This document shows positions 2,744 to 42,754 of a stretch of DNA of 47,178 nucleotides, in pieces. The position numbers and the translations under genes are program-made. The stretch lies in IMG/VR virus record IMGVR_UViG_3300042892_003812, positions 1 to 47,178 of that record, one strand, 5' to 3'. Under the pieces are notes generated by a model. It had not been told where the DNA came from and did not search any database. It worked only from the letters and a program-made list of their open reading frames with translations. Source of the DNA: a virus. Positions within the stretch are counted from its first letter, which is position 1. Each line of letters begins with the position of its first letter.

Positions 2744-2746
2744 CCC

Positions 2747-9610: not shown

Positions 9611-12600
9611 ATGGCAACAACCACAAGACAAACGGCAATATTTGGAGTTGAGGACTGGAAACAGATCTATCAAACCTACCGAGAAGCTGACTTTCAAAGT
9701 TATGATTTTGAAACTCTGCGCAAGAGTTTTGTGGACTACTTACGCCTGTACTATCCTGAAACATTCAATGATTACATTGAATCTTCAGAGTACATTGCCT
9801 TATTGGATGTTATTGCATTCATGGGCCAAGCACTGGCCTTTCGTACAGATCTCAACACTCGTGAAAATTACTTAGACACAGCCGAACGCCGCGACAGTGT
9901 GGTCAGATTGGCCAACTTGGTCAGTTACACAGCCAAACGTAATACCGCGGCCCAGGGTCTGCTCAAAGTTTTTTCAATCAGCACCACAGAAAATGTTGTG
10001 GATTACCAAGGTATCAATCTTTCCAATCTCACAGTGAACTGGGCGGATCAAACCAATCCAGACTGGCAAGAACAATTCACAGCCATTATCAATGCCAGTC
10101 TGGTAGACACACAACGAGTTGGACGTCCGGGCAATAGACAAACTATTTTAGGTGTGGATACCAACGAATACAGTATCAACCTTGTGCCAGGATTCTTGCC
10201 TATTGTGCCGTACACTGCCACAGTTGATGGAGTAAGTATGCCTTTTGAGGCCATGACATCTACTTCAGTGGGTGAAACATATTTGTATGAGCCAAGTCCG
10301 CAGGCCAACCGGCCATTCAATGTGTTGTTCCGCAACGACCAATTGGGTTTTCAGTCTGCCAACACCGGTTACTTCTTCATGTTCAAACAAGGTGTTCTAC
10401 AAAATCAAGATTTTAACTTGGCTGAAAAAGTCACCAACCGCACAGTCAATATCAATATTGAAGGAATCAACAACGAAGACCGTTGGTTGTTCCAGCTCGA
10501 CAATGTGGGCAATATAAATCGCGAATGGGAATATACAGAAAACATTTATTCAGCGGCAGCAGAGCAAGTGGGCACAACCCTGCGGCCAATCTATTCAGTG
10601 ACATCACGCACAAACGATCAAATAACCATGGTGTTTGGCGACGGGGTGTTCTCAGAAATTCCAGTGGGCACATTCCGCGCCTATGTACGTGCTTCTAACG
10701 GATTGCAATACATTATCAATCCTGAAGAAATGCAAAGTGTGACTATTCCCATCAGTTATATCAGTCGTGCTGGCAATCTTGAAACTATAACATTTACCTG
10801 TGGTATCACTCAACCAGTCAGCAATAGCCAAGCACGTGAAACTATTGATCAAATCAAACAACGTGCTCCTGCTAGATACTACACACAAGATCGCATGGTC
10901 AACGGTGAAGATTACAATCTCTTTCCTTACACACAATACAACTCCATTGTAAAAAGCAAGGCCTTAAATCGTGCTTCAATTGGTACCAGTCGTTATCTTG
11001 ACCTTGTGGACAACACAGGAAAATATTCCAGCACCAACAGTTTTGGCGCTGATGGTGGATTATGGGAACAAAATATTCTTCCTACCATTTTGTTCACATT
11101 TACCAACCGTAACGAAATTGCTGACTTTGTGACCAATCAGGTACAACCTGCTGTTGGTATAGCCACAATGAGACAGTTTTATTATGAAAACTTCCCTAGA
11201 GTTACTTCCAGCACATTGCCCACATACGGCGGCACAACATGGGTAACTGGAGCGTCGTGGACACAAAGCACCACTCTGGCCAATGAAACCACAGGCTATT
11301 TCAAGAACGCAGTGTATTCAGTAACATTTCCCACAGGATCACCTATTCCAGTGGGACCAACCACGACCACAGCATTCAAATATGTTGCTGTGGGTAGTTT
11401 GATAAAATTTGTACCACCGGCAGGTCAATATTTTGACAAAAACAACAAATTACAAACAGGAGTGCCAACATCCGCAGATCAAACTTTGCAAATTTGGGCC
11501 AGCCCTATCGGCATTGAAGGCTCGGGTTACAATAATGGATTAGGCAACTTACCTTCCGGAGCAGGACCAGTTGCACTCAACAATTTTGTGCCAACAGGTG
11601 CCTTGGTTGACACAATAATTCCTTTGTTTGTGACCGATATACCTGTTGCTATAGAGCAAAGCATTGCTGAACAGATGTTGTTGAATCGCAACTTTGGTCT
11701 TGGCTATGATAACGACGGTGATATTACTGGTACACCGTACTCATGGTATTTAATTACCAGCACCAATCTTGCACAAGATTCCTCTTGGAGCCAACAATAT
11801 GCTGGCAACAGCTCAGGTGCCAATCTTGATGCATCATGGTTGATACAATTTGTTGTGCAAAATCAAAATTATACAACCACCTTCCGTGGTCTAGCCTACT
11901 ATTTTGGATCAGTATTGAGCACAAGGTTTTTCTTTTATGATGGTGGCCAAATATATGACAGTCGCACAGGCTCAGTGATCAAGGACTTTATCAATGTGCT
12001 GGCAGTCAACACTCAGCCAGATTCTACAGATCATCTACCTGGCGATATCTTCATGACCATTACAGGACAACCAGTAGAGAGCGATGGCTACGTTGACGAT
12101 TTTCAGGTCTTGGTAGGATATCGTGACAGCGACAACGATGGAGTGCCAGACAATCCAGACTTCTTTAGTGAAATTGTAGCCCCAACGGTGAATTCCACCC
12201 AAAAATATATCTATCTACAGAAAACAGTGGACTTTGACAATTTGCAAAGATATCTGTTGGTAGAGCCTGGTATAGTTACCAGCGACTATGCCACGCTTGC
12301 TGCAATTGAATTACAAAAAAGTGCCTGGTCACCTGGTCAAGTGTTCTACGCCTATTCCACTCAAGAATTTTATCAGTTGTCAATCACAGTGACTGGAGCC
12401 AGAACCCTAATCAACGTCACTGACGAATGGATTGCTAGAATTGGTCGTCAAAGTTTGTATTTTCAATATCGTCACAATGCACCATTGACTTCAAGAATTG
12501 ATCCAGGCACAACCAACATCATTGATTTATATGTGGTAACATTGAGTTACTACACTGCCTATCAGAACTGGATACGCGATACCACAGGCACCATAGTTGA

Positions 12601-13189
12601 GCCCTTGGTTCCTACCATTGATCAATTGTCAACTGAATATCAAGGACTACAAGAGTACAAAATGTTGAGCGACAATATTATTTTGAATTCGGTGATATTT
12701 AAACCCTTGTTTGGAATCAAAGCAGATGCCAATCTGCGTGGTACCATCAAAGTAATTCGTGCTCAGGGATCTACAGCCAGCACAAGCGAAATCAAAAGTA
12801 GTGTGGTTGCGGCCATGAACACCTACTTCTCAATTGACAAATGGAATTTTGGAGATACATTTTATTTCTCTGAACTGGCTGCGTATCTACACCGTGAGCT
12901 AGGCACGATTATCAGTTCAGTGGTCTTGGTGCCGTTGGATAGGCAAAAATTCTTTGGTGATTTGTATGAAATACGGTCAACTCCTAGCGAAATCTTTGTC
13001 AACGGTGCCACAATCAACAACATTGAAGTTATAGAAGCACTAACCAGTAGCAATCTTCGCACAGCCTCTGGCAGTGGAGTGACCTTTGCTGCAGATGGTA
13101 GTAGTACAAGTATCAGTTCAAATGGTAGTGCTAATGGCGGAGGTGGCGGTGGTGGTGGCGGCTACGGTGGTGGCGGAGGATCGTATTGA
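9611..13189 (+). CDS. 6: Baseplate wedge subunit gp6
   Basis: A 1192-aa protein of the gp6/J-like family, the wedge core that dimerises into the inner baseplate ring. The N-terminal helical part (DFETLRKSFVDYLRLYYPE, then YIALLDVIAFMGQALAFRTD and NLNTRENYLDTAERRDSV) is the diagnostic gp6 start. The middle has beta-rich J-like segments (TMVFGDGVFSEIPVGT; ARYYTQDRMVNGEDYNLFP). The C-terminal part (PLFGIKADANLRGTIKV ... ISSVVLVPLDRQKFFGDLYE) is the usual gp6 ending. It is nearly twice as long as T4 gp6 (660 aa), with insertions around residues 480-880. The protein ends in a Gly-rich tail from residue ~1177 on, whose codons supply the GGAGG ribosome site of the next gene. AGAGG at 9597-9601 supports the start. 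Confidence 0.85.
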   Translation: MATTTRQTAIFGVEDWKQIYQTYREADFQSYDFETLRKSFVDYLRLYYPETFNDYIESSEYIALLDVIAFMGQALAFRTDLNTRENYLDTAERRDSVVRLANLVSYTAKRNTAAQGLLKVFSISTTENVVDYQGINLSNLTVNWADQTNPDWQEQFTAIINASLVDTQRVGRPGNRQTILGVDTNEYSINLVPGFLPIVPYTATVDGVSMPFEAMTSTSVGETYLYEPSPQANRPFNVLFRNDQLGFQSANTGYFFMFKQGVLQNQDFNLAEKVTNRTVNINIEGINNEDRWLFQLDNVGNINREWEYTENIYSAAAEQVGTTLRPIYSVTSRTNDQITMVFGDGVFSEIPVGTFRAYVRASNGLQYIINPEEMQSVTIPISYISRAGNLETITFTCGITQPVSNSQARETIDQIKQRAPARYYTQDRMVNGEDYNLFPYTQYNSIVKSKALNRASIGTSRYLDLVDNTGKYSSTNSFGADGGLWEQNILPTILFTFTNRNEIADFVTNQVQPAVGIATMRQFYYENFPRVTSSTLPTYGGTTWVTGASWTQSTTLANETTGYFKNAVYSVTFPTGSPIPVGPTTTTAFKYVAVGSLIKFVPPAGQYFDKNNKLQTGVPTSADQTLQIWASPIGIEGSGYNNGLGNLPSGAGPVALNNFVPTGALVDTIIPLFVTDIPVAIEQSIAEQMLLNRNFGLGYDNDGDITGTPYSWYLITSTNLAQDSSWSQQYAGNSSGANLDASWLIQFVVQNQNYTTTFRGLAYYFGSVLSTRFFFYDGGQIYDSRTGSVIKDFINVLAVNTQPDSTDHLPGDIFMTITGQPVESDGYVDDFQVLVGYRDSDNDGVPDNPDFFSEIVAPTVNSTQKYIYLQKTVDFDNLQRYLLVEPGIVTSDYATLAAIELQKSAWSPGQVFYAYSTQEFYQLSITVTGARTLINVTDEWIARIGRQSLYFQYRHNAPLTSRIDPGTTNIIDLYVVTLSYYTAYQNWIRDTTGTIVEPLVPTIDQLSTEYQGLQEYKMLSDNIILNSVIFKPLFGIKADANLRGTIKVIRAQGSTASTSEIKSSVVAAMNTYFSIDKWNFGDTFYFSELAAYLHRELGTIISSVVLVPLDRQKFFGDLYEIRSTPSEIFVNGATINNIEVIEALTSSNLRTASGSGVTFAADGSSTSISSNGSANGGGGGGGGGYGGGGGSY
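13176..13180 (+). promoter_or_regulatory. Ribosome binding site inside the gp6 Gly-rich tail
   Basis: GGAGG lies 8 nt upstream of the ATG at 13189 of the giant gene, inside the Gly codons that end gp6. It fixes the start at 13189, in a TGATG overlap with the gp6 stop, rather than the in-frame TTG at 13186. Confidence 0.75.
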
Positions 13190-16100
13190 TGGCCACAATT
13201 CGTAGTGTAGATTTTCTTCCTGAAATTTTTCAGACTGACGCCAACAAACAATTTTTGGCAGCCACACTTGATCAACTGATTCAAGAACCCAACTTTAGAA
13301 AAACCCAAGGATTTATTGGACGCACAGTGGGACCGGGTATTGATCCCAACGACAAGTATGTGATTGAGCCCACAAAAACACGAACCGACTATCAGTTGGA
13401 ACCAGGCGTGGTAAGTCTTGTGCCTGATACTGATACCATCAAAAATGTCATCACATATCCAGGATTGAATGATGCTGTGACATTTCAAGGGGGAGATGGC
13501 AACCGCCCTGACCGATTGTATTCAAGTGAATACTACTCTTGGGATCCATTTGTTGACTTTGATCCTTTTATTAATTTCAGCCAATACTATTGGATTCCAG
13601 CAGGACCTGATGCAGTAGATGTGGCATCTGCTGGCATTCCTACCACTGACAATTTTGTTGTGACCACCAGTGGTGATTCGTACAATTTTTCAGGCATCAA
13701 TGGAGACAATCCTGTTGTTACGCTGGTGCGAGGGGGCAGTTATGCTTTTCAGGTAACCAACCAATTTTACATACAGTCTGCTCCAGGAATTGCAGGAACA
13801 GTTCCTGCTACCCCAAACATCAGCAGTAGAGATGTGTATGGCGTGACCAACAATGGTACCGCATCTGGAACTGTTGTTTTTAATGCTCCTCTCAAGGACG
13901 CACAAAGTTTTTACTATAATCTCACCAGCATTGGTACCATTGACTTGGTTACAGAATTAGCATATGATGACATCAATGGTCAACCCTTGGTTGATTTTAT
14001 TGCCTCAACAGGTGGTATTGATTCAACCACTAACTTGGACAATCGCACACTGATTTTTATCAACAATCCTGCAAGAACGCAAAAATATCAAATCACACTC
14101 ACCACTGTGAGCGGCATTGTGTATATCCAATTAGCAGAAATAGCCACAATAAACAGTTTAGAAAAATGGACAATCAGTTACGGCACAGTGTACAGTAACA
14201 CACAATGGTACAAAGATCCAGCAGGAGTAATTAGAAGCGTTCCTTTATTGAGTGCAGTTCAAGACACATTATATTATCAATCTGGAACCAACGCAGAAAT
14301 ATTTGGACGTATAGTTCTTGTTGAACCTGGAAACAGCAGTGATCTTAATATCAACGACATTATAGATCAAAATTCTTATACCAGTCCCAACGGCGTGACC
14401 TTTACCAATGGTCTCAAAGTACGATTTACCGGAGATGTGATTCCTTCCAGTTTCGGTTCCGGCACCAGCAGCTTTGCATGTACAGCTACCGAAGCAGGTA
14501 CAAACTATATCACTTATTATGATGCTGTCAATTTATATGCGGGACAAGCTATTATTTTCCTCTCTCCAACTCTGGGTGGCCTGGTTGCTGGCACAACCTA
14601 TTATGTGAGATCAATTTCAGCAAACAACCTCAAATTCACAGTGAGTGCAGTACCAAATGGTCCTGTGGTCACACTTGCCACAGGCACAGGCACTATGAAT
14701 GCAATTGCTGTCAGCAATCGCGAATATTATGTGAGTGGTGTTGGCACAGCAATTGAATTGTTACCAGTTGAAAATTTCACTGTGTATGAAAGTTACGCTA
14801 CAGACTACACAGACAGCACAATTGCGATAGAACCTGCAGATCCTGATTACTTAACTATCAACCGTGCCAGTGCCGATCAAAACGCATGGTCAAGAAGCAA
14901 TAGATGGTTTCATATTGATGTAATCAACGCCACAGCTGAATACAATAATCAGATCGCTGAAATTGAAAGGTACACCAGAGCCAGTAGACCAATTTTACAA
15001 TTCCGCCAAGACATACGGTTATACAACATGGGTACCCAGGGCAAAGCTGCTGTAGACATTATTGACTTTGTGGAAACTGATGCATTTTCAAATGTGGCAG
15101 GTGCTACCAGTTATTCAACTGACGGTTACACCTTGGTTGAAGGCTCGCGAGTTATATTTGCTGCGGATGAAGATGCAGATGTACGCAACAAAATTTACGT
15201 GGTCAGTTTTGCCACACCTGATACCATTGCACCGTTGATACCACAACCAATTATTGTGTTGACCGAAGCAGCAGATGGTGCAGTTGAGATAGATGAATCA
15301 ACAGTATGTATCAACGGTGACACCAGTGCTGGATTTACGTTCTGGTATGATGGAATTGACTGGATTCAAGCACAACAAAAAACTTCAGTACAACAAGCAC
15401 CGTTGTTCGACATATACGACACAGATGATGTGAGTTTTGGCGATGCAGTCAAGTATCAGTCTACAGATTTTGTTGGTTCCAAATTGTTTAGTTATGCAGT
15501 AGGTGATACAACCATACTTGATCCAGTGTTGCAATTCCCATTACAATATTTGAATATCAACAACGTGGGTGACATTGTGTTCAACAACAATCTCTATGTT
15601 GACACATTCACTTTTACCACAGACAATGTCAGCACGGTGACAGCTATCAGTTCAGGTTCCGTAAGACAATATCAAACTCGTACCACATATACCAAGCTTC
15701 TTGGCTGGCAAACTGCTATCACTGAACAACAAATTTATCAACAATTTAAATTTACATACACCCAACAAACTCTTTTGCTGGACATCGCGGTCACTGCTCA
15801 AACATCAATTGCGGTGCCAGTAATAAAAATATATGTTGGCAGTCAATTTATTCAACCCAGCAAGTATACCTATACTGTGGGAACGGACAGTACGACCATT
15901 GTGTTGAACGACACTTATGTGCCTACTGACATCATTGAAGTGCTTGTGATCAGTGATCAAACCAGCAAAGTTGCATTCTATCAGGTGCCTGATAATTTAC
16001 AAAATAATCCTCTCAACGAAAACAGTCCAGCATTTACACTGGGCACAATTCGCACACATTATCAAAGCATTTGCGAAAATCTTTTGGAGTTGACTGGCCC

Positions 16101-19100
16101 AATCAACGGTGCAAATAACAGTAGAGATCTTGGTAATATTATTCCTTACGGTCAAGAGATCCTGCAACAGAGTTCTCCATTGACCTTGGCTGGCTATTTC
16201 ATGCGCAGTGACAGTTACAATATATTTGCATCATTACAATACAACAGTAGAGAATATATCAAATTCAAAGCTCAAATGTTGGACGCAGTGTTGACTCAAA
16301 ATAACATTGCATTCAAAACCACAGCCACTATTCTTGATCAGGCCATTCAAGACATCACGTTGGGCAAATTGGAAAGTCAACCGTTTTACTGGAGTGACAT
16401 GTTGCCACAAGGTATCACTGCGTACAGCAACAGTTACACTGTGGGATTTACCACAATAGCCACATTTGACACTGTGCAGACATACAATTACGCATCAGCA
16501 AATTATCTTGGACTTTGTGTATATCTGAATAATGATATTTTGGTTAGAGATCGAGATTATGTTGTGGCCACTGACGGCCCACGATTGACCATATTGGACT
16601 CGCTTGCCAGTGGCGATGTAGTAACAATCAACGAATACAGTGCCACTTACGGCAATTTTGTGCCCAACACCCCCAGCAAAATGGGACTGTATCCAAAATA
16701 CGAACCAGAAATCACAATCTTGGTAACTTCAAACGGAACCGGTGAATTTATTATCGGACATGATGGAAGCCAAACTCCGGTATTTGGAGACATCAGAGAT
16801 CAAGTGTTGTTGGAGTTTGAAACAAGAATCTACAACAACATCAAACAAGATGATAATCCAGTACCACTCACTATAGAAAATGTTTTGCCAGGACAATTCC
16901 GCGACACAGGATATACCTTTGAAGAAATCAATACCATCTTTGGTACAGATCTCTTGAGTTATCTTGGCTGGAACAAATTAAACTTCAAAGAACAAACATT
17001 CAGTGCCACAAATGAGTTTACCTGGAATTATAGCAATACCACCAATCGACTCAACAATGAAAATCTACTGGGTGCCTGGCGCGGCATATATCGCTATTTT
17101 TACGACACTCAACAGCCAAGTTATGCTCCTTGGGAAATGCTGGGATTCTCCATAGAGCCCACCTGGTGGCAGGATAGCTATGGTCCAGCTCCGTACACTC
17201 AAGACAACTTGGTACTATGGGATGATTTAGAAGCCGGTCTTGTGGCAGATCCTGTGGCTCCTTATTACAAGCCCAACTATGCAAGACCTGGATTGACTTC
17301 AGTCATACCCACCGGTGGTGAAGGAGAATTACTCAGCCCCCAAAACAGTGTGGTGGGCGGTTCTGTGTTGAATCAGAGTCTCAACGCAAAATATCAAAAG
17401 AGTTGGGCCATTGGTGATGGTGGACCAGTTGAAGCTTCCTGGTGGAACAGTTCTTCATATCCGTTTTCTGTCATGCATGTGTTGGCAGTTACTCGTCCTG
17501 CCAAGTTCTTTGCACTGTTTGCTGATCGTGATCTTTATAAATTCAACGCAGATTACGATCAATACCTTTACAACAATCGCTACCGACTGGATGCCAATGG
17601 TATAGAAGTTTATGGTGGAGAATTAAATGCATCAACAGGTGTGACAACTCCAGTCAGCAAAGCCAGTTATATCAATTGGATTGTGGACTACAATAGACAA
17701 ACTGGTGTGGATTCAACCAATCTGTTGACCGCAGATCTCAAAAGTTTAGACGTGAGATTGTGTTACAGAATGGCCAGTTATTCTGACAAACAGTATGTGA
17801 AATTGGTGACTGAAAAATCCAGTCCCAACAGTGTGAACACAACCTTGACCATACCCGATGAAAGTTACAATATATTGTTGTACAAAAATCAACCGTTTGA
17901 TCAAATCAAGTACAGCAGTGTGGCGGTACAAAAAGTCAGCGGTGGTGGATATGCAGTGTTTGGATATGGCACCACACAACCCTATTTTGAAATATTACAA
18001 AGTCAAGCGGTGGGCAAATTGCAAGAATACAGTTCCGGCGGCATAACTGTGCGTGTTCCAACTTTCTATACTGACAGTGTGGTGCAGGTTCCTTATGGAT
18101 TTGTGTTTGTAAATGAAACCGCGGTGAGTGATTTCTTGCTTAGCTACGGTAAATTGTTAGAAGATCAAGGATTGACATTCACAGATCAGGTAAATGGATA
18201 TGTGTTGGACTGGCCACGAATGGTAAATGAATTTTTATACTGGAGCCAACAAGGTTGGGGAACCAATTCACTTATCAATTTGAATCCGTTGGCCGGTGGG
18301 CTTACTGTGACTCGTGCTGGCGCGGTGGTTGACAGCATTGTGACTGAAACAAGTGAAAATTTGTTGTTGGATCAGAACTCAAATGAGATACCAACACGAA
18401 CACTTAATGTTGTGAGACTTGGAAATACCTTTACTATACAACCGTTAAGTACTCAAAGTATCAGTTATGTCAATTTGCGATTTACTAACTTCGAACACAT
18501 GCTGGTGTTGAGTAATAGGAGCACCTTTGGTGACCTGATATATGATCCGGTTACTGGTGCACGGCAAAATAGATTGAAGCTGGTGGCGGTGACAACCAAT
18601 GACTGGAATGGTAGTGTAGATACTCCAGGATTTATTTTGAATCAAGACAATGTTCAAGAATGGACTGGCCTGCGTGGTTATAGCAAAGGTGAAATTGTCA
18701 AGTACAAAAATGTGTATTGGTCAGCATTGACCATAGTGCAACCCAGTGCTAACTTTGACTTCAACGTTTGGACACAAAGCGACTACAGTCAAATTGAACT
18801 TGGACTACTGCCTAATCTGGCCAACAAAGCAGATCAACTGGCCAACAGCTACAACATAAATTCAGCCAATATTGAGACAGACAACGATCTTTTGAGTTAT
18901 GGATTGATTGGATTCAAACCTCGACAGTACCTGGCTGCATTGAATCTTGATGACGTGAGTCAAGTAAATGTGTATCGACAATTTTTGGGAACCAAAGGTA
19001 CTCGTCAAGCCACCGATTTATTCAAATCTGCTAATCTTGGAAAAGAATCTGCAGACTACTCAATCTACGAAAATTGGGCTGTGCAACGGGCTGTGTACGG

Positions 19101-22100
19101 AGCCAATGCCAACCGTAGTTTCCTTGAACTACGATTGGATAGAGCATTACTCAGCGCCAACCCAAGCCTGGTTCAAGTGACAGTACCACAACAAGCAAGT
19201 GCAGCAGACCAACAGATATTTTTAGAAAATGTATGGCGCTCAAGCCGTGCTTTGACCAGCACAAGTATTTTACCAACCACAACCGAACTACCCACTGACA
19301 CAGCCTTACCTGGTGCTGGATATGTGAACCTGGAAGACGTTGACATCACGGTGTTCGACATCACAGACACTGCAAGTCTTGCGGCCAACCTTGATTCTAT
19401 CCAGGTGGGTACCAGTATATGGGTGGCCAAGATCAACGACTACGATTGGAACATTTATCGCGCACGATCAGTACCAGGACAAATTCAGCATGTTTGTGAC
19501 AACTTGAATGGAACCAGCCGGGTAATCTTTAGTGGACAGCATGGACTGGTCACTGGTGACAAATTGATTATCAAGGGATTTGATAGCGAAATCAACGGCG
19601 TGTATCAAGTGCTTGGTGTTCCCAATCTCAACACTGTGAACATAGCATTTGCATTTACCAGTGATCGTGCAGTTGCAAATGGCACAGGAATTGGACTTAC
19701 ATTGCAAACCGCGCGGGTAGCACAAGCCAGTGATATTGCTCAGTTGCCGTTGGCTCTGGATACATTGCCACTGTCAAAAGTTTGGGTAGATAACAATGGA
19801 TATTCACTTTGGGAAGTGCTGGAAAAAAACAATGTGTTCTCAAGTGTGGTAGAATTAAGCCCTGAATTATTGGATGCCAGCGAACAATATGGTGCAAGTG
19901 TAGCACAAGCTCAAAACAGATTGGCTGCTTTTGTGGGTAGTCCGCGTTATGGATTCAGTTCAGGAATTTCAAAAGGCGCTGTTTATGTTTATTTAAAAAG
20001 TTTCAGTGATCAATATGTACCGGTAAGCCCACTGGGCAACGGCGATGCTATACTGACATTGGATGCAACAGGAGTAAGAGGATACGGCAACGCAGTGGAT
20101 TTTGGCAATCAAAACTGGGCAGTAGCAGGGGCCAGTGCAAGTTTTGGCGCCGCTGGCCAAGTTGATAATGGATACGCATGTGTGATATTCCGCGACCCAG
20201 TGTTGGCAGTTCCTGATTCTATTCCGTTTGCACAATGGCAGTTGCTCACACAACCCGCAGGATATGGCACTTTGTTGACTGGCGCAGGTGAATTTGGCTA
20301 CAGTGTGGCCATGAGTTTGGATGAACGTTGGATGTATATCGGAGCTCCAGGTCTAAACAGCGTACATGCCTATGGGTATCATGATTGGCAAAATCAAGTA
20401 ATCAAAGTCACAGGTGATGGGGTCACTACTGTTTACACCATTGACAACACAATTCAAATCAACAATGACTATCAACTCAAGGTAACCTTGAACGGTCAAG
20501 TGCAGACGGTGGTTACTGATTACACTATAGATGCAAGTTTTAGCACAGTTACCTTTCTTACCACGCCAGGAGTGACTGCAGCAGGCAGTTTTGTTCCTGG
20601 ACAATCATACTCTATTTTGACTGTGGGAACAACAGACTTTGTGGCCATTGGTGCCAGTGCCAACACTGTGGGAGTTGAATTTATAGCTACCGGTACAGGT
20701 TCTGGAACTGGCACTGCTCTTGTGCCCACATTGATTGAATTTTCTCGCTATAACAGTTTTCAAATTCCATACACAGCAGTGACTTACAATCTCGACGATG
20801 ATATCAACAACGATGGAAACAGAGTTGGATTGTTTACTGCTACCAACATATATTCATTTAGTATCACTCTAAATGGTGATTTGTTGCGTCCCAATATTGA
20901 TTACACGTTTGCAGGAACCACAGTGACATTTATCGTGGCTCTCACAAGTATTGATATTGTTGTGGTCAACGCCAAGGGATATTTTGAATATGTTGCCACC
21001 ATTGATTCCAGTTCTGTTACAGGTGGATTAACAGCTGGTGACAGGTTTGGACAAAGTGTTTCATGTTCTACAGATGGTCGTCAAGTGTTGATTGGCACAT
21101 CCAATCGCACTATAGATGGAGAAGTTGAAGCAGGCACAGTGTATGTGTTTGATCGCAATGTGCAAAAATTTATTTGTGCAACCACTGCAGCCAACACCAA
21201 CTTTACAGTGTTGGGTGGCACACCAACTGCTCCAGTCAGTGTGATAGTGAACAATGAATTTTACATAAATGAAACCGATAGCGTGATTGGAGCTGACAAC
21301 TCATTCACAACAAATGCAGCCATAGTCACAGTGGCAGGTACTTTGCAAGTTGGAGATGTGGTTGAAATTGAAACAAATCAATTCCAACAGCAACAGCAAG
21401 TTGATCAACATGTGGTTGCAGAATTTTCAAACTTTGGCCAGGCTGTGGATATGTGCAGTAACAATTGCAGTTTGTATGTGGGTGCGCCACAAAGCAGCCA
21501 ACAGACTTTTAAAGGTGGTGTGGTTGAACGTTTTGTTAACCAAAGCCGTGTGTATGGCACCTTGGCCTGCGGCAACCCATTTGGCACATTGACCCCTGGT
21601 AATACCCTACGAGTGAACAATCAAGACGTGGTGGTGCCAGGAGCTTGGTCTTCGGCCACAGCTTATAATGCAAACACAGTGGTTTATAACACCAGCGGCG
21701 CCACAACTGTCATTTATGTTTCTCTGCAGTACACTCCATCTTCTACAATATTAACCAACACAGCCTATTGGTTGCAAGTTGATTCAACCACAGTATCAGC
21801 GTCGGTGAGTTATCGTACCTTAGCCGCACAAATCAACGCAACTGTTTCTAATGTGATAGCAGTTGTGGATGATCACGGACATCTTACCATATCAACCAAG
21901 AACCTAGCTGCGGCGCCTGAATATGACAAATTACAGATAGCACCCGGTAGTGTGGGCACTGCATTCCAGACTATTGCATTTGAAACATTTGCATGGACTC
22001 AAACAATCACCAGTCCTTATGCTGTGCAATATGCAGGATTTGGCAGTGCTATCAGTATTGACGACACAGCTATTAATCTTGTGGTCGGAGCACCACGTGG

Positions 22101-25100
22101 CAGTCTATATCTTGAAACAGAATTTGATGATGGAACGACCTTCTTTGATGCTGGTAGTACTATTTTCTTCTCTTTGATAATCCAAAGTGGTGCAATTTAT
22201 ACATTTGACTATTTGCCCAGTAGTTCGTTGGTAGTAACTAATCCTGGCCAGTTTGTGTTTGGCCAACAAATCAACAACTCCCAGGTAAGTTCATATGACA
22301 CGTTTGGTACCTCTGTCAATTACACATCAGGAGTGCTCATGGCCGGGGCACCCAAAAATGACAACGGCGATAGCGATGCTAATTTTGGTGCTGTGTTTGT
22401 GTTTGACAACCCGGACAATTTGCCAGTGTGGACCGTGATACAGATTCAACAACCCACAGTTGATATACGTCTGTTGAACAGTGTGTTTTTGTATGATAGT
22501 ATTACCAGCGCAAGAACAAAGTTTTTGGATTTTATCAACCCATTACAAGGCAAAATACTGGGTGCCGCTCGTGCCAATATTGATTATATTGGTGCAGTGG
22601 ATCCAGCCGCATACAATGTTGGGGGAGTGAATCTCAAAGGTACCACGTGGTTTGAGGATCATGTGGGAGAAGTTTGGTGGGACACTAGCACTGTGAGGTT
22701 CATTGATCCGAATCAAGATTCAATAGTGTACGCCAGTCGACGATGGGCTCAGCTGTTCCCAGGAAGTCAAGTGGATGTTTACCAATGGATACGTAGCACA
22801 ACGCCTCCGTCATTGTACGCAGGCGAAGGCGTTCCACAAAACACACTGTCCTACACAGTAAACTCAAATCTGTCCCAAGATGGAACATTTGCCACCTACT
22901 ATTATTTCTGGGTGCGAGGCATCACAGTCACCGCTACACAACTGGGCAAAACATTACCAGCAAGTACAGTGGCATCATATATTGCTGATCCCAAGGCCAG
23001 TGGCATTGCTTACCTGGCTCCAATAAATGCCAGTACCATTGCACTATACAACAGTGCCGATGACATTGAGGCCAACGACACGGTGATCAGTATTGAGTAT
23101 GATCGTGAATTGACCACAGACAACGTTCACGTAGAATATGAACTAATTCCGCAAGACCGCGCAGATGGATTTTTAAGCGACAGTTTGTATCGTAAACTGC
23201 AAGACAGTTTCTGTGGAGTAGACACATTTGGCAATAAAGTTCCTGATCCCAACCTAGGACCAGCAGAACGTTATGGGGTACAATTCCGGCCGCGCCAGTC
23301 TATGTTCATAGACCGTTTCTCAGCATTGGAAAATTATTTGGTTCGAGCCAACACCGTGTTGGCCCAATACCCAATTAGCGAAACAAGATCCTTTAGCCTA
23401 CTAAACAGCAGTGAACCTATTCCAGTTGAGTCAGAAACAATCAATGCAGGAAGTTTTGTTGTGGGCAATACCTACACAATTTTCACTGTGGGAACAACAG
23501 ACTTCACACTTATAGGTGCCGCTTCAAACACTGTGGGAGTAGAGTTCTTGGCCACCGGTGCAGGCACAGGAACAGGCACGGCTGTGATAACAAATTGGAA
23601 TCTACAAGTTGCTAACCTAGAACAACTGGGATTCCAAACTCCAATTTGGTCTAATACCAGTGGACCAATACCATTGGGATACAAATATCTTGTTACCACT
23701 GACAGCAGCAATCGTGGTCTATGGACAATTTACACTGTGCAAAACAGCGATACCTTGGCAAACACAAGAGTATTGACCTTGACAAAACTACAAGGTTTTA
23801 ACACACCAGATTATTGGAGTTATATCGACTGGTACCGTCCTGGATACAATTCCAGTACCAAGGTTGTGGCTGAGGTCAACACATATTCAGCTCTGGCAAC
23901 CTTGACTGTGGCCATTGGCAGCAGCGTCAAAGTCACTGCTAACGCACAAGGCAAATTTGAAATTTATTTACTTACCGATCTAGGCTATGAACGAGTGGCA
24001 CTGGAGGACGGAACAATTGAATTTTCTGAAGAATTATGGGACTACGCTGTAGGACGTTTTGGATTTGACGTTGAAGTGTTTGATGCTCAATATTTTGATC
24101 AAGAACCAGTAAAAGAAACAAGAAAAATTATTCAAGCTATTAATGAAGAATTGTTGATAGACGATCTTGGTGTACAACGCAACAAAGCTCTGGTTTTGAT
24201 GTTTGACTATGTGTTGAGTGAATCTCTAGCACCAGAGTGGTTGGTCAAGACCAGTTTGATTGACGTGGATCACAACATAAGACAGTTGATTCCATATCAA
24301 AATTACCTGGTTGACAATCAAGAATTTGTAGAAGATTATATTCAAGAAGTCAAGCCATATCATGTGAGCGTGAGAGAATTCAATTTGAAATACACTGGAT
24401 TTGATGAATTTTTTGGAGATATTGCAGATTTTGATGTGCCGGCCTATTACAACACATCCTTAGAGATACCCAAATTTACCAGTCCAATACTGTTGCCTTA
24501 TGATCAGGGCACTGCATTTGGTTCGCCAACCAATATCGAAAGTGATTTACCAGCAACCAGTGCAGTCTGGACCACCTGGCCCTGGAGTCAGTGGTACAAC
24601 AATCACCTGTTGCAACTGGACAGTGTCACAGTCATTTCCGGCGGATCAGGATACACTGAACCACCTGTGGTGATAATCACCGGCGATGCATTGGTACCAG
24701 CTCAAGCCACCGCACTGATCAACAGTGCCGGGCAGGTGGTGTCAGTATCAGTAACCAGTGCAGGTTCTGGATACAGTCAAACACCTGTTGTGACATTTGA
24801 CGGTGGTAACGGCACGGCTGCTCAAGCCTACGCTCGAATGACCAATGATCTTGTGAGAAGCATACGCACAGTGATCAAGTACGATCGTTTTCAATATTTT
24901 AGTAATGTTCAAACGTGGAGTACAGACGGAACCTATCAAGATGGTCAGTTGGTACGCTATGAAAATCGTGTGTGGCAAGCCACATCCGCTGATTCAACAG
25001 CAGTGGTTGGCCCGTCGTTTGATCTAGAAGATTGGACTGAGATTGCACCTAGTGCACTAACCGGTGTTGATCGTACCATGGGTTATTATCAACCGGGTGT

Positions 25101-27972
25101 TAATCAACCAGGACTTGAGTTGCCACTCTTGATTGACGGAGTTGACTATCCAGGTGTTCAAGTTTATGGAAATTATTTCTCGGGTACCCCATTGGCCTTA
25201 GATGCAGTGTACTCCAGTGAATTCACAGACACTGGTCTAGGAACATTACCCACAGATATCAATGTTGAAGGTGGCGAATTCGTTGGCTTGTATGAAGGTC
25301 ATGCACCGGAAGAATTAGTGAATGGTGCAGAATTTGACACACTTGATTTCCGTGTTTACACACGTCCAGGTGCAGACTGGAACAGAGACGGGCATGGATT
25401 CCAATGGAGCACTATTCGTTACACATACGAACCTGCTATTGCCACTGATTATAGTTGGGCAGGACTTGTAGAAAATCCTGTTCAGGTGCTGGTCAGTAAT
25501 GTGACCACAGGTCTTGACCTTGCGGTTGATATAGATTACACAGTTGATTGGGTCAACCAAACAGTTGCATTGCTCACAGCCGTAGTGGAAGATGTTTTCC
25601 AAATCAGCGTGTATGAACTGGGCGGTGGAAGTCAATTGTATCGTGAAAATTACATTGGTGGAGACATTGGAGAAACTGTGGTGGTTCCTGTAAACTCGGC
25701 AGAAATTACCAGTATTGCTGTGTTTGTTAATGGTGAGAATGTTGGCAGTGTGACCTGGGAACCCTATGCCGACAGCACTGTCTGGAACACCGCCAACAGT
25801 TACAACAAATTAGCGGTGGTGAATAACAATGGTGATTATTACCGTGCGTTGCAAGATGTACCGATTGGCACTGCAATCTCCAACACATTGTACTGGTTTG
25901 AATTTGTTCCGGCCCAGCAAAGTCTAGTGGATTTTGGCACAGAGTATGGTGCCACAGACGGCGTGGCCATTGTGGTTTTTGGTACTTATACCGTTGATGC
26001 CGGCAACTTTGTGATTGGAAAATCATACACGATTACCACTATTGGTACCACTAACTGGGTCTCTATTGGGGCGTCATCTGCCGCAGTAGGTGTGAGTTTT
26101 GTGGCCACTGGCACAGGAACTGGCACAGGGCAGGCATCTAGTGCATACTCATGGTCAACCCCACAAACACAAATTGTCATAGTGAATGCTGACACAGCTG
26201 CATCGAAAAATATCACCATGACCAATAGTGTGCAAGGATCCAATCCTGCCAATGCTGTGGTCACACGCAATGGTTTGAGATTGAGACCACCGGCTGGAAT
26301 TGAATGGATTGGAGATGATTCTACTATCGGTAGTTACCCATTACCACAACGTCTTGGATTCAGCCAGTCGTTAATTTTTGCCCCCAGTGAAGTTAGTGTG
26401 TGGGTAGATAACATTTTGCAAAATCAAATTGTGGGACCTAGCCCCGGTACATACACAGTCACTGCCTATGATGGCACCGAAACTCGTGAAGTTTTATTTG
26501 TTACACCGCCACCTAGCGGATCAAGAATATTAATTTCTGTGTCAACTTTGGCAGATTATGTGATTGTGGGTGAGCAATTACAAATCACTGCTACTGTAAA
26601 CATCAACGATGTGTTTGCAATAACCACCTGGAACGATACTGCTCAACAATTTCCTTTGACCTTGGTTTTTGTTGGACCGGTAACTCAAGGATTCACAGTC
26701 ACAGAAGGATATGACAACACAGTTTATGATCCATTGTTTGTTGATGGCGCTGGGACAGGAACCTACCCAGCTGGACAATTTATAATAGGTAACACTTATA
26801 CTATTTTAACTGCTGGAGATACTGACTTTGTTGCCTTAGGTGCTGCCAATAACATTCCAGGAACTGTGTTTATTACAACCGGTATTGGTTCTGGCACAGG
26901 AACTGCCACCGGAACCACCACTGTTAGAAGTTCTGCAACTGATGCTTTTAATAATACAGCTGGATCATATGATTTTTCAATAGGTGTTTCTGAAAACATC
27001 AATGATTTTTATCTGCAAAGAAGTTTCAACAATGCCAGTCGACTATGGGTAACACTGGATGGAGAAAGACTGTTTGAGGGAGTGGATTACACTGTGCAAG
27101 GTGACTATTTGGTCCTAGCCAGTGGTGTAATTGGACCAGCACAGGTCATGGTAATTGAGCAGTACACCAATAGCATAGTCCCAGATGCCATGGCATTTCG
27201 TATATTCCAAGACATGCGTGGAGTGCAGGCCACTTATAGAATTACCAATGCTACCACAACCACACTGGCACAGGCATTGACCAGCACAGCAAACGTTGCT
27301 TATGTGACCAATGCTGAGGCACTAAGTCAACCAGACCTTGCGGCAGGCATTTTTGGTGTGATCACCATAGACGGTGAACGCATCATGTATCGTGAAAGAA
27401 ATACTGCTCTAAACACAATTTCGGGACTCATGCGTGGCACAGCAGGTACAGGAGCAGATGATCATGACACAGGTGCTGAGGTGTATGACACAGGACGAGG
27501 CAATTTGTTGGCTGAACAGTTTCAGGATTATGTTGTAAGTGATTCTACCCTGGGAGATGACAGCACCACAGTATTCTACGCACCCAGCATAAGAATTGGT
27601 AATTTTGAAGATTCTGCTGTTGAAGTGTCTGCCCTTGAAGTGTATGTGGGCGGCATGCGTCAATACGCTGAAAGCAATGATGGGTCAACCCTGATTACAA
27701 CACCCAGCCAGTACCGTTGGAATTGCATAGATGGTGGTGGTCCTGATTACACTGATAACGAAGGTAATATCACGCACAATCCTCTAACAATAGAGTTTGT
27801 TGTAGACAACACAGTGTATCCACCTTTACAAGCCCCTGCTGCAGGATCAGAAGTTACTATTCTGGTAAGGCAAGGAGTTACCTGGTACGCTCCTGGTACA
27901 ACCACAGCCAGCGACGGAATTGCACTGCAAGACACCGACACCGTGGCTGCAAGGTTTTTACGCGGTGCGTAA
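13189..27972 (+). CDS. Giant gp7-position baseplate/adhesin protein (4927 aa)
   Basis: One uninterrupted frame of 4927 codons. The N-terminal ~900 residues (VDFLPEIFQTDANKQFLAAT, LIQEPNFRKTQGFIGR, YYSWDPFVDFDPFINF, QAPLFDIYDTDDVSFGD) resemble the long structural proteins that follow gp6 in aquatic T4-like phages, so I infer a gp7-position baseplate arm. QEFVEDYIQEVKPYHVSVRE (about residue 3712) belongs to the same type. Between and after these lie extension modules. There are seven FG-GAP-like blades (about 2232-3079) and four ~46-residue GTTDF repeats (from 2465, 3420, 4271 and 4528). Four W..Y..G..V carbohydrate-binding-like modules start near 1825, 2819, 3909 and 4198. A GSGY pair is at 3817-3884. 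Many 'vnG....DYtv' strands recur throughout, and a GERIMYRERNT...GLMRGT element lies near the C-terminus. It probably forms baseplate arms carrying receptor-binding parts. T4 gp7 is 1032 aa. No frameshift was seen. Confidence 0.7.
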   Translation: MATIRSVDFLPEIFQTDANKQFLAATLDQLIQEPNFRKTQGFIGRTVGPGIDPNDKYVIEPTKTRTDYQLEPGVVSLVPDTDTIKNVITYPGLNDAVTFQGGDGNRPDRLYSSEYYSWDPFVDFDPFINFSQYYWIPAGPDAVDVASAGIPTTDNFVVTTSGDSYNFSGINGDNPVVTLVRGGSYAFQVTNQFYIQSAPGIAGTVPATPNISSRDVYGVTNNGTASGTVVFNAPLKDAQSFYYNLTSIGTIDLVTELAYDDINGQPLVDFIASTGGIDSTTNLDNRTLIFINNPARTQKYQITLTTVSGIVYIQLAEIATINSLEKWTISYGTVYSNTQWYKDPAGVIRSVPLLSAVQDTLYYQSGTNAEIFGRIVLVEPGNSSDLNINDIIDQNSYTSPNGVTFTNGLKVRFTGDVIPSSFGSGTSSFACTATEAGTNYITYYDAVNLYAGQAIIFLSPTLGGLVAGTTYYVRSISANNLKFTVSAVPNGPVVTLATGTGTMNAIAVSNREYYVSGVGTAIELLPVENFTVYESYATDYTDSTIAIEPADPDYLTINRASADQNAWSRSNRWFHIDVINATAEYNNQIAEIERYTRASRPILQFRQDIRLYNMGTQGKAAVDIIDFVETDAFSNVAGATSYSTDGYTLVEGSRVIFAADEDADVRNKIYVVSFATPDTIAPLIPQPIIVLTEAADGAVEIDESTVCINGDTSAGFTFWYDGIDWIQAQQKTSVQQAPLFDIYDTDDVSFGDAVKYQSTDFVGSKLFSYAVGDTTILDPVLQFPLQYLNINNVGDIVFNNNLYVDTFTFTTDNVSTVTAISSGSVRQYQTRTTYTKLLGWQTAITEQQIYQQFKFTYTQQTLLLDIAVTAQTSIAVPVIKIYVGSQFIQPSKYTYTVGTDSTTIVLNDTYVPTDIIEVLVISDQTSKVAFYQVPDNLQNNPLNENSPAFTLGTIRTHYQSICENLLELTGPINGANNSRDLGNIIPYGQEILQQSSPLTLAGYFMRSDSYNIFASLQYNSREYIKFKAQMLDAVLTQNNIAFKTTATILDQAIQDITLGKLESQPFYWSDMLPQGITAYSNSYTVGFTTIATFDTVQTYNYASANYLGLCVYLNNDILVRDRDYVVATDGPRLTILDSLASGDVVTINEYSATYGNFVPNTPSKMGLYPKYEPEITILVTSNGTGEFIIGHDGSQTPVFGDIRDQVLLEFETRIYNNIKQDDNPVPLTIENVLPGQFRDTGYTFEEINTIFGTDLLSYLGWNKLNFKEQTFSATNEFTWNYSNTTNRLNNENLLGAWRGIYRYFYDTQQPSYAPWEMLGFSIEPTWWQDSYGPAPYTQDNLVLWDDLEAGLVADPVAPYYKPNYARPGLTSVIPTGGEGELLSPQNSVVGGSVLNQSLNAKYQKSWAIGDGGPVEASWWNSSSYPFSVMHVLAVTRPAKFFALFADRDLYKFNADYDQYLYNNRYRLDANGIEVYGGELNASTGVTTPVSKASYINWIVDYNRQTGVDSTNLLTADLKSLDVRLCYRMASYSDKQYVKLVTEKSSPNSVNTTLTIPDESYNILLYKNQPFDQIKYSSVAVQKVSGGGYAVFGYGTTQPYFEILQSQAVGKLQEYSSGGITVRVPTFYTDSVVQVPYGFVFVNETAVSDFLLSYGKLLEDQGLTFTDQVNGYVLDWPRMVNEFLYWSQQGWGTNSLINLNPLAGGLTVTRAGAVVDSIVTETSENLLLDQNSNEIPTRTLNVVRLGNTFTIQPLSTQSISYVNLRFTNFEHMLVLSNRSTFGDLIYDPVTGARQNRLKLVAVTTNDWNGSVDTPGFILNQDNVQEWTGLRGYSKGEIVKYKNVYWSALTIVQPSANFDFNVWTQSDYSQIELGLLPNLANKADQLANSYNINSANIETDNDLLSYGLIGFKPRQYLAALNLDDVSQVNVYRQFLGTKGTRQATDLFKSANLGKESADYSIYENWAVQRAVYGANANRSFLELRLDRALLSANPSLVQVTVPQQASAADQQIFLENVWRSSRALTSTSILPTTTELPTDTALPGAGYVNLEDVDITVFDITDTASLAANLDSIQVGTSIWVAKINDYDWNIYRARSVPGQIQHVCDNLNGTSRVIFSGQHGLVTGDKLIIKGFDSEINGVYQVLGVPNLNTVNIAFAFTSDRAVANGTGIGLTLQTARVAQASDIAQLPLALDTLPLSKVWVDNNGYSLWEVLEKNNVFSSVVELSPELLDASEQYGASVAQAQNRLAAFVGSPRYGFSSGISKGAVYVYLKSFSDQYVPVSPLGNGDAILTLDATGVRGYGNAVDFGNQNWAVAGASASFGAAGQVDNGYACVIFRDPVLAVPDSIPFAQWQLLTQPAGYGTLLTGAGEFGYSVAMSLDERWMYIGAPGLNSVHAYGYHDWQNQVIKVTGDGVTTVYTIDNTIQINNDYQLKVTLNGQVQTVVTDYTIDASFSTVTFLTTPGVTAAGSFVPGQSYSILTVGTTDFVAIGASANTVGVEFIATGTGSGTGTALVPTLIEFSRYNSFQIPYTAVTYNLDDDINNDGNRVGLFTATNIYSFSITLNGDLLRPNIDYTFAGTTVTFIVALTSIDIVVVNAKGYFEYVATIDSSSVTGGLTAGDRFGQSVSCSTDGRQVLIGTSNRTIDGEVEAGTVYVFDRNVQKFICATTAANTNFTVLGGTPTAPVSVIVNNEFYINETDSVIGADNSFTTNAAIVTVAGTLQVGDVVEIETNQFQQQQQVDQHVVAEFSNFGQAVDMCSNNCSLYVGAPQSSQQTFKGGVVERFVNQSRVYGTLACGNPFGTLTPGNTLRVNNQDVVVPGAWSSATAYNANTVVYNTSGATTVIYVSLQYTPSSTILTNTAYWLQVDSTTVSASVSYRTLAAQINATVSNVIAVVDDHGHLTISTKNLAAAPEYDKLQIAPGSVGTAFQTIAFETFAWTQTITSPYAVQYAGFGSAISIDDTAINLVVGAPRGSLYLETEFDDGTTFFDAGSTIFFSLIIQSGAIYTFDYLPSSSLVVTNPGQFVFGQQINNSQVSSYDTFGTSVNYTSGVLMAGAPKNDNGDSDANFGAVFVFDNPDNLPVWTVIQIQQPTVDIRLLNSVFLYDSITSARTKFLDFINPLQGKILGAARANIDYIGAVDPAAYNVGGVNLKGTTWFEDHVGEVWWDTSTVRFIDPNQDSIVYASRRWAQLFPGSQVDVYQWIRSTTPPSLYAGEGVPQNTLSYTVNSNLSQDGTFATYYYFWVRGITVTATQLGKTLPASTVASYIADPKASGIAYLAPINASTIALYNSADDIEANDTVISIEYDRELTTDNVHVEYELIPQDRADGFLSDSLYRKLQDSFCGVDTFGNKVPDPNLGPAERYGVQFRPRQSMFIDRFSALENYLVRANTVLAQYPISETRSFSLLNSSEPIPVESETINAGSFVVGNTYTIFTVGTTDFTLIGAASNTVGVEFLATGAGTGTGTAVITNWNLQVANLEQLGFQTPIWSNTSGPIPLGYKYLVTTDSSNRGLWTIYTVQNSDTLANTRVLTLTKLQGFNTPDYWSYIDWYRPGYNSSTKVVAEVNTYSALATLTVAIGSSVKVTANAQGKFEIYLLTDLGYERVALEDGTIEFSEELWDYAVGRFGFDVEVFDAQYFDQEPVKETRKIIQAINEELLIDDLGVQRNKALVLMFDYVLSESLAPEWLVKTSLIDVDHNIRQLIPYQNYLVDNQEFVEDYIQEVKPYHVSVREFNLKYTGFDEFFGDIADFDVPAYYNTSLEIPKFTSPILLPYDQGTAFGSPTNIESDLPATSAVWTTWPWSQWYNNHLLQLDSVTVISGGSGYTEPPVVIITGDALVPAQATALINSAGQVVSVSVTSAGSGYSQTPVVTFDGGNGTAAQAYARMTNDLVRSIRTVIKYDRFQYFSNVQTWSTDGTYQDGQLVRYENRVWQATSADSTAVVGPSFDLEDWTEIAPSALTGVDRTMGYYQPGVNQPGLELPLLIDGVDYPGVQVYGNYFSGTPLALDAVYSSEFTDTGLGTLPTDINVEGGEFVGLYEGHAPEELVNGAEFDTLDFRVYTRPGADWNRDGHGFQWSTIRYTYEPAIATDYSWAGLVENPVQVLVSNVTTGLDLAVDIDYTVDWVNQTVALLTAVVEDVFQISVYELGGGSQLYRENYIGGDIGETVVVPVNSAEITSIAVFVNGENVGSVTWEPYADSTVWNTANSYNKLAVVNNNGDYYRALQDVPIGTAISNTLYWFEFVPAQQSLVDFGTEYGATDGVAIVVFGTYTVDAGNFVIGKSYTITTIGTTNWVSIGASSAAVGVSFVATGTGTGTGQASSAYSWSTPQTQIVIVNADTAASKNITMTNSVQGSNPANAVVTRNGLRLRPPAGIEWIGDDSTIGSYPLPQRLGFSQSLIFAPSEVSVWVDNILQNQIVGPSPGTYTVTAYDGTETREVLFVTPPPSGSRILISVSTLADYVIVGEQLQITATVNINDVFAITTWNDTAQQFPLTLVFVGPVTQGFTVTEGYDNTVYDPLFVDGAGTGTYPAGQFIIGNTYTILTAGDTDFVALGAANNIPGTVFITTGIGSGTGTATGTTTVRSSATDAFNNTAGSYDFSIGVSENINDFYLQRSFNNASRLWVTLDGERLFEGVDYTVQGDYLVLASGVIGPAQVMVIEQYTNSIVPDAMAFRIFQDMRGVQATYRITNATTTTLAQALTSTANVAYVTNAEALSQPDLAAGIFGVITIDGERIMYRERNTALNTISGLMRGTAGTGADDHDTGAEVYDTGRGNLLAEQFQDYVVSDSTLGDDSTTVFYAPSIRIGNFEDSAVEVSALEVYVGGMRQYAESNDGSTLITTPSQYRWNCIDGGGPDYTDNEGNITHNPLTIEFVVDNTVYPPLQAPAAGSEVTILVRQGVTWYAPGTTTASDGIALQDTDTVAARFLRGA
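19882..22425 (+). repeat. Seven FG-GAP-like propeller blades in the giant protein
   Basis: Seven segments share the signature '(F/Y)G.(S/A)V......l.(V/I)G(A/S)P......G.(V/A)YvF'. They lie near 19882, 20068, 20284, 21040, 21427, 22036 and 22300. Examples are FGYSVAMSLDERWMYIGAPG and FGTSVNYTSGVLMAGAPKND. Seven blades is the number of an integrin-alpha-type beta-propeller. Blades 3-4 and 5-6 are separated by inserts that include a GTTDF repeat and a carbohydrate-binding-like module. Confidence 0.65.
20581..26910 (+). repeat. Four copies of a ~46-residue GTTDF/GTGTGT repeat
   Basis: Copies at 20581-20718, 23446-23584, 25999-26137 and 26770-26910 follow the pattern 'AG.FV.G..Y.I.T.GTTDF..IGA..N.VGV.F.ATG.GTGTGTA'. 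Copies 1 and 2 are also very similar as DNA, including ACTGTGGGAACAACAGACTT in both, so spread by duplication is likely. The unit looks like a small beta hairpin domain common in phage fibre proteins. Its function is unknown. Confidence 0.8.
24637..24840 (+). repeat. Tandem GSGY repeat pair in the giant protein
   Basis: Two adjacent units of about 34 residues (giant-protein residues about 3817-3884) share 'SGGSGYTEPPVVIITG' and 'SAGSGYSQTPVVTFDGG'. Each is followed by Ala-rich strands (AQATALINSAGQV, AAQAYARM). The pattern is frequent in phage tail-fibre and baseplate proteins and suggests a short beta-structured spacer. Confidence 0.65.
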
Positions 27973-27991: not shown

Positions 27992-28141
27992 ATGCCAAAT
28001 ACACAACCAACCAAAACAGTTGACCCAAAACAGCAGACAATGCCCGCCAAACCCAACGAGACTGGAACCATCAATGTGCAAGGATATTTTAGAGTGTTTG
28101 ATCCAAACACACAGAAAACCATTGTGGAGGGACGAGCATGA
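27992..28141 (+). CDS. Small virion-associated protein (49 aa)
   Basis: A 49-residue frame with no homologue I can name. It is supported by an upstream late promoter motif and by a 4-nt ATGA overlap with the next gene at 28138; its last codons contain that gene's GGAGG ribosome site (28126-28130). Residues 1-23 are polar and Pro/Lys/Gln-rich. Residues 24-47 (TGTINVQGYFRVFDPNTQKT) have the same spacing of TG, G, basic-hydrophobic-aromatic and DP as the N-terminus of the following 201-aa protein (TGPAKITGHVKIYDPTSGE). It may be a truncated paralogue or an accessory subunit of that protein. Confidence 0.7.
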   Translation: MPNTQPTKTVDPKQQTMPAKPNETGTINVQGYFRVFDPNTQKTIVEGRA

Positions 28142-42698: not shown

Positions 42699-42754
42699 AT
42701 TAATTTTCGATCCCGATGATCACAAAATTGCTACATATAGAAGGAAAGATTTCA

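Follow-up and report, generated by a model that had tools for sequence, protein, structure and literature searches.

The window analysed here, an entire virus record of 47,178 bases, encodes in one frame a protein of 4,927 residues. With a probability of roughly two in three, this protein occupies the gp7 slot of a jumbo T4-like myovirus as a structural part of its baseplate wedge, and it probably represents gp7 in a much enlarged form. This giant is a member of an already known family of giant baseplate proteins of large phages and is notable for its size.

Reading frame of the giant gene

The giant gene (13189-27972, plus strand) is translated into 4,927 residues with a single terminal stop codon and none internally; the computed mass of the protein is 536.7 kDa and its pI 4.25. 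The frame takes up 31.3% of the window and the protein is 4.8 times as long as T4 gp7 (1,032 residues, L088), in agreement with the nearly fivefold length and the share of about 31% given in an earlier note on this DNA. The start codon overlaps the stop codon of the preceding gp6-like gene (TGATG), and a Shine-Dalgarno-like GGAGG lies directly 5' of it. Given the base composition of the window, a stop-free run of 4,927 codons would arise by chance with a probability of about 1e-120.

The metagenomic source of the DNA and the broken frames of a few relatives could suggest that such a length results from an artefact of assembly or gene fusion, but the probability of this is negligible. Complete, uninterrupted homologous frames were found in a first round in 49 IMG/VR contigs (4,699-5,336 residues, median 4,961) and in a second round in about 50 further IMG/VR contigs (4,208-5,340 residues), and isolate genomes hold homologues of up to 4,555 residues. 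The shorter-looking frames of four relatives (L018, L061, L161 and L162) continue in another frame or hit the contig end, and look like assembly frameshifts. Furthermore, dN/dS of the giant gene against its relatives is 0.03-0.12 in each computable segment, and purifying selection acts along its whole length. An assembly artefact as the source of the length was excluded by the approximately 100 complete frames, similar in length and independent of one another, together with these dN/dS values. The earlier note had described an intact single frame and had named an artefactual frame as grounds for abandoning its reading; translation, relatives and selection bear out the former and speak against the latter.

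Gene neighbourhood in the window

The baseplate genes preceding the giant, as well as its conserved 3' neighbour, were identified from PHROG matches:

2444-2743, plus strand: gp53-like baseplate wedge subunit, 99 residues (PHROG 7145, E 8e-20; PHROG 1269)
6023-7543, plus strand: gp5-like baseplate hub / tail lysozyme, 506 residues (PHROG 13211, E 2e-38)
9185-9562, plus strand: gp25-like baseplate wedge subunit, 125 residues (PHROG 43, E 9e-10)
9611-13189, plus strand: gp6-like baseplate wedge subunit, 1192 residues (PHROG 10646, E 4e-276; PHROG 219, E 3e-21)
13189-27972, plus strand: giant virion protein, 4927 residues (PHROG 10938, E 9e-295; dN/dS 0.03-0.12)
28138-28743, plus strand: protein of 201 residues, PHROG 11259 (unknown), conserved neighbour 3' of the giant

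With the giant in the place of gp7, the order gp53-gp5-gp25-gp6-giant contains the gene order gp25-gp6-gp7, for which the gp6-gp7 order of T4 and that of S-SSM5 were compared. Genes of approximately the same length as that of the 201-residue protein also follow the giant in Cassandra, SCTP-2, Vibrio 2.275.O and Phosso. Some relatives lie on contigs as long as 344 kb, which makes a jumbo T4-like myovirus the most likely source of the window.

Several other features of the window were recorded. The gp6-like protein closes with a glycine-rich tail, GGGGGGGGGYGGGGGSY (13130-13189), abutting the start of the giant. An ORF of 49 residues (27992-28141, plus strand; MPNTQ...VQGYFRVFDPNTQKTIVEGRA) separates the giant from the following gene and is conserved in L003, L009, L013 and L055; ORFs of 41-42 residues occupy the position 3' of the giant in Cassandra and Atu_ph07. 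A protein of 540 residues, for which neither a PHROG nor a Pfam match was found, is encoded between the gp5-like and gp25-like genes (7545-9167, plus strand). The region 3' of the structural genes (36428-47176, plus strand) holds at least five radical-SAM/SPASM-like ORFs together with an NAD-dependent epimerase (42716-43714) and a carbamoyltransferase (46115 onward), and looks like a sugar- or base-modification cluster. A single minus-strand ORF with weak GDSL-lipase similarity (35016-35726) is situated within the plus-strand block.

Protein family and presence in virions

The full-length giant matches the profile of PHROG 10938, a family described as virion structural protein, in four stretches with E 9e-295, and CBB_236 fits the same profile end to end; phAPEC6 gp245 and GAP32_230 are also included in this family. 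Homologues, revealed by matches to residues 1-2900, are held by at least 84 isolate-phage records, and the ten inspected measure 3,138-4,555 residues:

CBB, CBB_236: 3,340 residues
RaK2, ORF070: 3,326 residues
121Q, gp582: 3,323 residues
XacN1, ORF325: 3,313 residues
RAS14: 3,138 residues
Vibrio 2.275.O: 3,771 residues
SCTP-2, gp140: 3,807 residues
Cassandra: 3,857 residues
Atu_ph07: 4,449 residues
Phosso: 4,555 residues

Extreme length is the rule of this family and not an exception. A further scan with the Cassandra block returned no relatives. The homologue lies directly 3' of a gp6-like gene in the window, CBB, RaK2, Cassandra, XacN1, Phosso and 121Q; in SCTP-2, RAS14 and Atu_ph07 the gene 5' of it is annotated merely as 'hypothetical' in the records, and gp58 of AP-J-162 (4,455 residues) is preceded by a baseplate wedge protein (PMC11242549). 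The gp6-adjacent slot is kept across phages of both Gammaproteobacteria and Alphaproteobacteria.

Mass spectrometry of CBB and phAPEC6 identifies members of PHROG 10938 as virion proteins. The virion proteome entries of CBB give CBB_236 with 21 unique peptides and 7.72% coverage (PMC5259590), and those of phAPEC6 give gp245 (381.88 kDa, 17 peptides), which adjoins gp244, a 'baseplate wedge' protein (PMC7247149). The computed mass of 121Q gp582, 381.87 kDa, equals that of phAPEC6 gp245. By analogy, the giant of the window's own phage would be located in the virion as well. The proposal of a virion or baseplate protein, made at the outset, thus agrees with the gp53-, gp5-, gp25- and gp6-like genes just 5' of the giant and with the orthologues in these published proteome entries.

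From its length and modularity the giant could conceivably be a polyprotein-like precursor cut into several separate virion proteins, and peptide coverage in the published proteome entries is only about 8%, but nothing direct points to such processing, and it is very improbable: those entries assign the CBB and phAPEC6 peptides to one product and note no cleavage, all relatives keep the order of the conserved blocks, and no protease or cleavage motif was recognised.

Relationship to gp7

The giant was compared by hhalign with a gp7 reference set comprising T4, Aeh1, Vibrio F86, phiM19 relatives and cyanophage giants. In the controls, T4-type gp7 matched phiM19-type gp7 with a probability of 98.9%, and the cyanophage giants matched phiM19-type gp7 with 98.5%, from which it follows that the test works and that the cyanophage giants are gp7 homologues. 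A comparative paper states that gp7 is absent from cyano- and pelagimyophages (PMC7029224); contrary to this, the gp6-adjacent cyanophage giants carry the gp7 core. Some records of cyanophages (ACG-2014f) already name the homologue 'baseplate wedge initiator'. In S-SSM5, SSSM5_094 (L165:11916-28078), which directly follows gp25-gp6, reaches 6,171 residues and is longer than the giant of the window.

Comparison with T4 gp7 gave no homology for residues 1-700, 901-2100 and 3101-4080 of the giant (0.1-0.2% probability), the deep profile of the KGT block scored 0.4%, and no match was found between residues 1-180 and the N-terminal core of gp7 or between the helical region 3560-3760 and the gp7 core. 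The best hhalign match in the protein is the following block:

18982-19047, plus strand: gp7-core-like block, residues 1932-1953, FLGTKGTRQATDLFKSANLGKE

It opens with F-L-x-T-K-G-T at residues 1932-1938. The giant family matches phiM19-type gp7 with 52.6% over residues 1913-1961, FLGTKGT being placed on FYRTRGT; with 63 diverse members the same match rises to 54.8% (E 1.2e-4), under the usual 90% threshold, and against the T4 or cyanophage gp7 profiles alone the KGT block is insignificant. When the whole protein was scanned, windows with the KGT block ranked first with a score of 36.2, as compared with 31.4 for the best region elsewhere and 19.9 for the best reversed decoy; the runner-up corresponds to the GSGYTxPP module, which is apparently present in phiM19-type gp7, too. 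Residues K1936 and G1937 are invariant among 68 relatives. In the AF2 model of residues 951-2150 the KGT block is helical with a low pLDDT of about 35-47, and gp7 was not found among the top 50 PDB matches of this model (Foldseek).

Taken at the level of sequence, homology of the giant to gp7 is probable, at about two in three, and not proven. A gp7-like N-terminal part had been claimed in the earlier note; of this, a moderate gp7-core signature (hhalign 53-55%) stands, located at residues 1932-1953 and not N-terminally, T4 gp7 itself giving no match. Since the core motif lies 1,900 residues into the giant, at residue 102 in phiM19 gp7 and at approximately residue 700 in S-SSM5, gp7 would, if the proteins are homologous, have grown by insertion ahead of the motif.

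Conserved core and optional modules

The giant of the window was aligned with those of six isolates (CBB, RaK2, Atu_ph07, SCTP-2, Vibrio 2.275.O and Cassandra). Residues 1-150, 510-2100 and 3100-4080 are common to all six, residues 200-510 and 2150-3100 are absent or nearly so from CBB and RaK2. The last 850 residues of the protein are variable.

13189-13638, plus strand: conserved N-terminal domain, residues 1-150, in all inspected isolate homologues
14716-19488, plus strand: conserved core, residues 510-2100, common to the six isolates

The AF2 models of residues 951-2150 and 3101-4240 have pLDDT values of 73.9 and 71.3, respectively, with 85-93 for about residues 1005-1450. No significant match of this well-modelled core was found by structure in PDB, and profiles built from three regions of the giant, run against PDB sequences, gave nothing at E up to 1; the BFVD matches for the core are homologues from Atu_ph07 and uncultured Caudovirales.

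The mosaic of propeller, sugar-binding-like and repeat modules supposed in the earlier note was found in the form of seven FG-GAP blades, four CBM5/12-like modules, about eight 'DYT' beta modules and four GTTDF modules, and module presence varies among relatives. Whole-protein self-BLAST and tblastn against the window listed no repeats, these probably being hidden by the full self-match; repeats were instead sought with protein chunks and profiles.

15823-15954, plus strand: DYT module 1, residues 879-922
16513-16641, plus strand: DYT module 2, residues 1109-1151
18658-18771, plus strand: CBM5/12 (chitin-binding type 3)-like module 1, residues 1824-1861 (Foldseek probability 0.98-1.00, rmsd about 2 Å, E 0.2-0.5)
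19885-22410, plus strand: seven FG-GAP blades, residues 2233-3074 (Pfam FG-GAP_2, E 3e-15)
20476-20577, plus strand: DYT module 3, residues 2430-2463
20857-20970, plus strand: DYT module 4, residues 2557-2594
21235-21369, plus strand: weak DYT module, residues 2683-2727 (E 0.002)
21643-21771, plus strand: CBM5/12-like module 2, residues 2819-2861, within the propeller (iterated profile)
24613-24912, plus strand: GSGYTxPP module, residues 3809-3908 (PHROG 1922, E 9e-12; PHROG 460, E 1e-10)
24913-25035, plus strand: CBM5/12-like module 3, residues 3909-3949 (Pfam CBM_5_12, sub-threshold E 0.18; Foldseek, chitin-binding domains and phage Milano RBP)
25480-25617, plus strand: DYT module 5, residues 4098-4143
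25783-25896, plus strand: CBM5/12-like module 4, residues 4199-4236 (internal comparison, profile)
26392-26547, plus strand: DYT module 6, residues 4402-4453
27043-27168, plus strand: DYT module 7, residues 4619-4660

The FG-GAP blades lie at residues 2233, 2298, 2368, 2617, 2746, 2948 and 3036, with insertions after blades 3 and 5, and have profile E-values of 5e-7 to 3e-16; FG-GAP_2 scores above the Pfam cut-off and occurs in 32 of 35 relatives. Residues 2233-3074 are predicted to form a seven-bladed FG-GAP beta-propeller, which is an optional add-on, being missing from the CBB and RaK2 homologues. The DYT modules resemble the N-terminal domain of T7 gp17 (profile, Foldseek), PF03906 being detected in 10 of 35 relatives for the copies in the propeller region, and the GSGYTxPP module is common to gp5-type and head-closure phage proteins.

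The four CBM5/12-like modules were located by internal comparison and an iterated profile, and do not reach the Pfam gathering score (PF02839, 12.3 bits against a cut-off of 26.2). In Foldseek searches with two separate AF2 models, stretches of 43-57 residues matched chitin-binding domains of chitinases and the receptor-binding complex of Milano (8fqc), with probabilities of 0.98-1.00, rmsd of about 2-5 Å and E 0.05-0.9; since the output carries no query coordinates, we infer the assignment of these matches to the CBM5/12-like modules. Fold resemblance at E 0.05-0.9 is consistent with a sugar-binding role, which these modules may have.

It is this abundance of beta-rich module arrays, like the pieces of tail fibres and receptor-binding proteins, together with a gp7 similarity confined to a block of approximately 50 residues, that would fit a fibre or adhesin fixed to the baseplate and without kinship to gp7, its KGT match being due to chance and the gp7 role being filled by another protein. 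We consider this unlikely, although clearly less so than processing or an artefact, because the best-conserved parts of the giant are large domains (residues 900-2100 and 3100-3400) and not modules, the gp6-adjacent slot is kept in phages of both proteobacterial classes, and the cyanophage giants in that slot clearly have the gp7 core.

Turnover of the GTTDF module

The GTTDF module, 48-53 residues long, occurs in four copies in the giant:

20572-20730, plus strand: copy 1, residues 2462-2514
23437-23595, plus strand: copy 2, residues 3417-3469, a clean in-frame insertion
25990-26148, plus strand: copy 3, residues 4268-4320
26761-26919, plus strand: copy 4, residues 4525-4577, an in-frame insertion

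No copy is present in 43 of 68 relatives, and the remainder have 1-5. The close relatives L003, L007, L008, L009 and L013 lack the copies at 3417 and 4525, and relatives without them show 81-88% identity over the conserved core; contig L002, which is 95% identical, stops before both sites. At the DNA level, the copy at 3417 is nearest to copies at the 2462 site (76%), and that at 4525 to copies in L120 (79-81%), a distant phage with a core approximately 67% identical. One copy is also carried by the gp6-like gene of L107 (L107:3459-7064; 74% identical to gp6 of the window), and three isolate records contain similar modules that go by unrelated names. The GTTDF module gave no meaningful match in PDB. 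Tentatively, the giant gene may be considered as a landing platform for small mobile in-frame modules, so that wedge proteins could become diverse through the shuffling of DNA pieces the size of a domain, a process not tied to the exchange of tail fibres, with the gp7-like core fixed.

Proposed role of the giant

In T4 baseplates, rearrangement of the wedge on contact sets off sheath contraction. As an enlarged gp7, the giant would use its conserved core (residues 1-150, roughly 510-2100 and roughly 3100-4080) to attach to the dimer of gp6 and to adjacent subunits, and this core would have the place beside gp6 in the wedge that gp7 has in T4. The optional parts, namely the propeller, the CBM5/12-like, DYT and GTTDF modules and the last 850 residues, which vary, would sit in surface loops and point outward, contacting sugars of the host surface or docking fibres or other tail parts. 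As in T4, rearrangement of the wedge upon contact would make the sheath contract. That the core touches gp6, and that the modules contact the host or dock other parts, is what we infer.

The earlier suggestion that the length of the giant replaces separate fibres or adhesins is not supported for the relatives, since phAPEC6, CBB and RaK2 have the giant plus separate tail fibres: the virion proteome entries of phAPEC6 include six tail fibres and three putative fibre proteins (PMC7247149), baseplate fibres are described for CBB (PMC5259590), and RaK2 has branched long fibres. The tail-fibre families PF13884 and PF07484 gave no match in the contigs of seven relatives, which is not read as absence of fibres, these two families covering few fibre types and the contigs being perhaps incomplete.

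If the modules bind host sugars, such baseplates would have built-in, rapidly exchangeable adhesins in addition to fibres. Hundreds of jumbo-phage and freshwater contigs list the giant gene as 'hypothetical' or 'virion structural protein', and its reading as a wedge protein in the gp7 slot would give it a testable virion location.

Comparison with known systems

T4 gp7 resembles the giant in its position between gp6 and the downstream genes and in a K-G motif after F-[YL]-x-T; in contrast, it has one fifth of the length, propeller and CBM modules were not seen in it, and neither sequence nor fold gives a significant match. The phiM19-type gp7 (about 1,007 residues) shares the aligned F[YL]xT[KR]GTxxS block with the giant, but has it at residue 102 instead of 1936, and no counterpart of its N-terminal half was seen in the giant. 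S-SSM5 SSSM5_094 is similar in its slot after gp25-gp6, its huge size, its mosaic with GSGYTxPP modules and its gp7 core motif; the two proteins do not align over their full length and have in common the modules and, weakly, the gp7 core. The CBM5/12 domains and the Milano 8fqc complex are alike in predicted fold (rmsd about 2-5 Å), with weak E-values.

Within PHROG 10938, the proteins of CBB, RaK2, 121Q, phAPEC6 and GAP32 share with the giant of the window the core over residues 1-150, 510-2100 and 3100-4080 and the slot after gp6 or a baseplate wedge gene. Their identity to it is 22-31% in most of the conserved blocks, and those of 121Q, CBB and RaK2 differ in their length of 3,323-3,340 residues. 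The giants of Atu_ph07, AP-J-162 and Phosso (4,449, 4,455 and 4,555 residues, respectively) differ in their overall identity of about 25-30% and in other C-terminal modules, but they occupy the same slot and have a similar length, and that of Atu_ph07 aligns along most of the region 2150-3100 with about 12-29% identity per segment of 100 residues.
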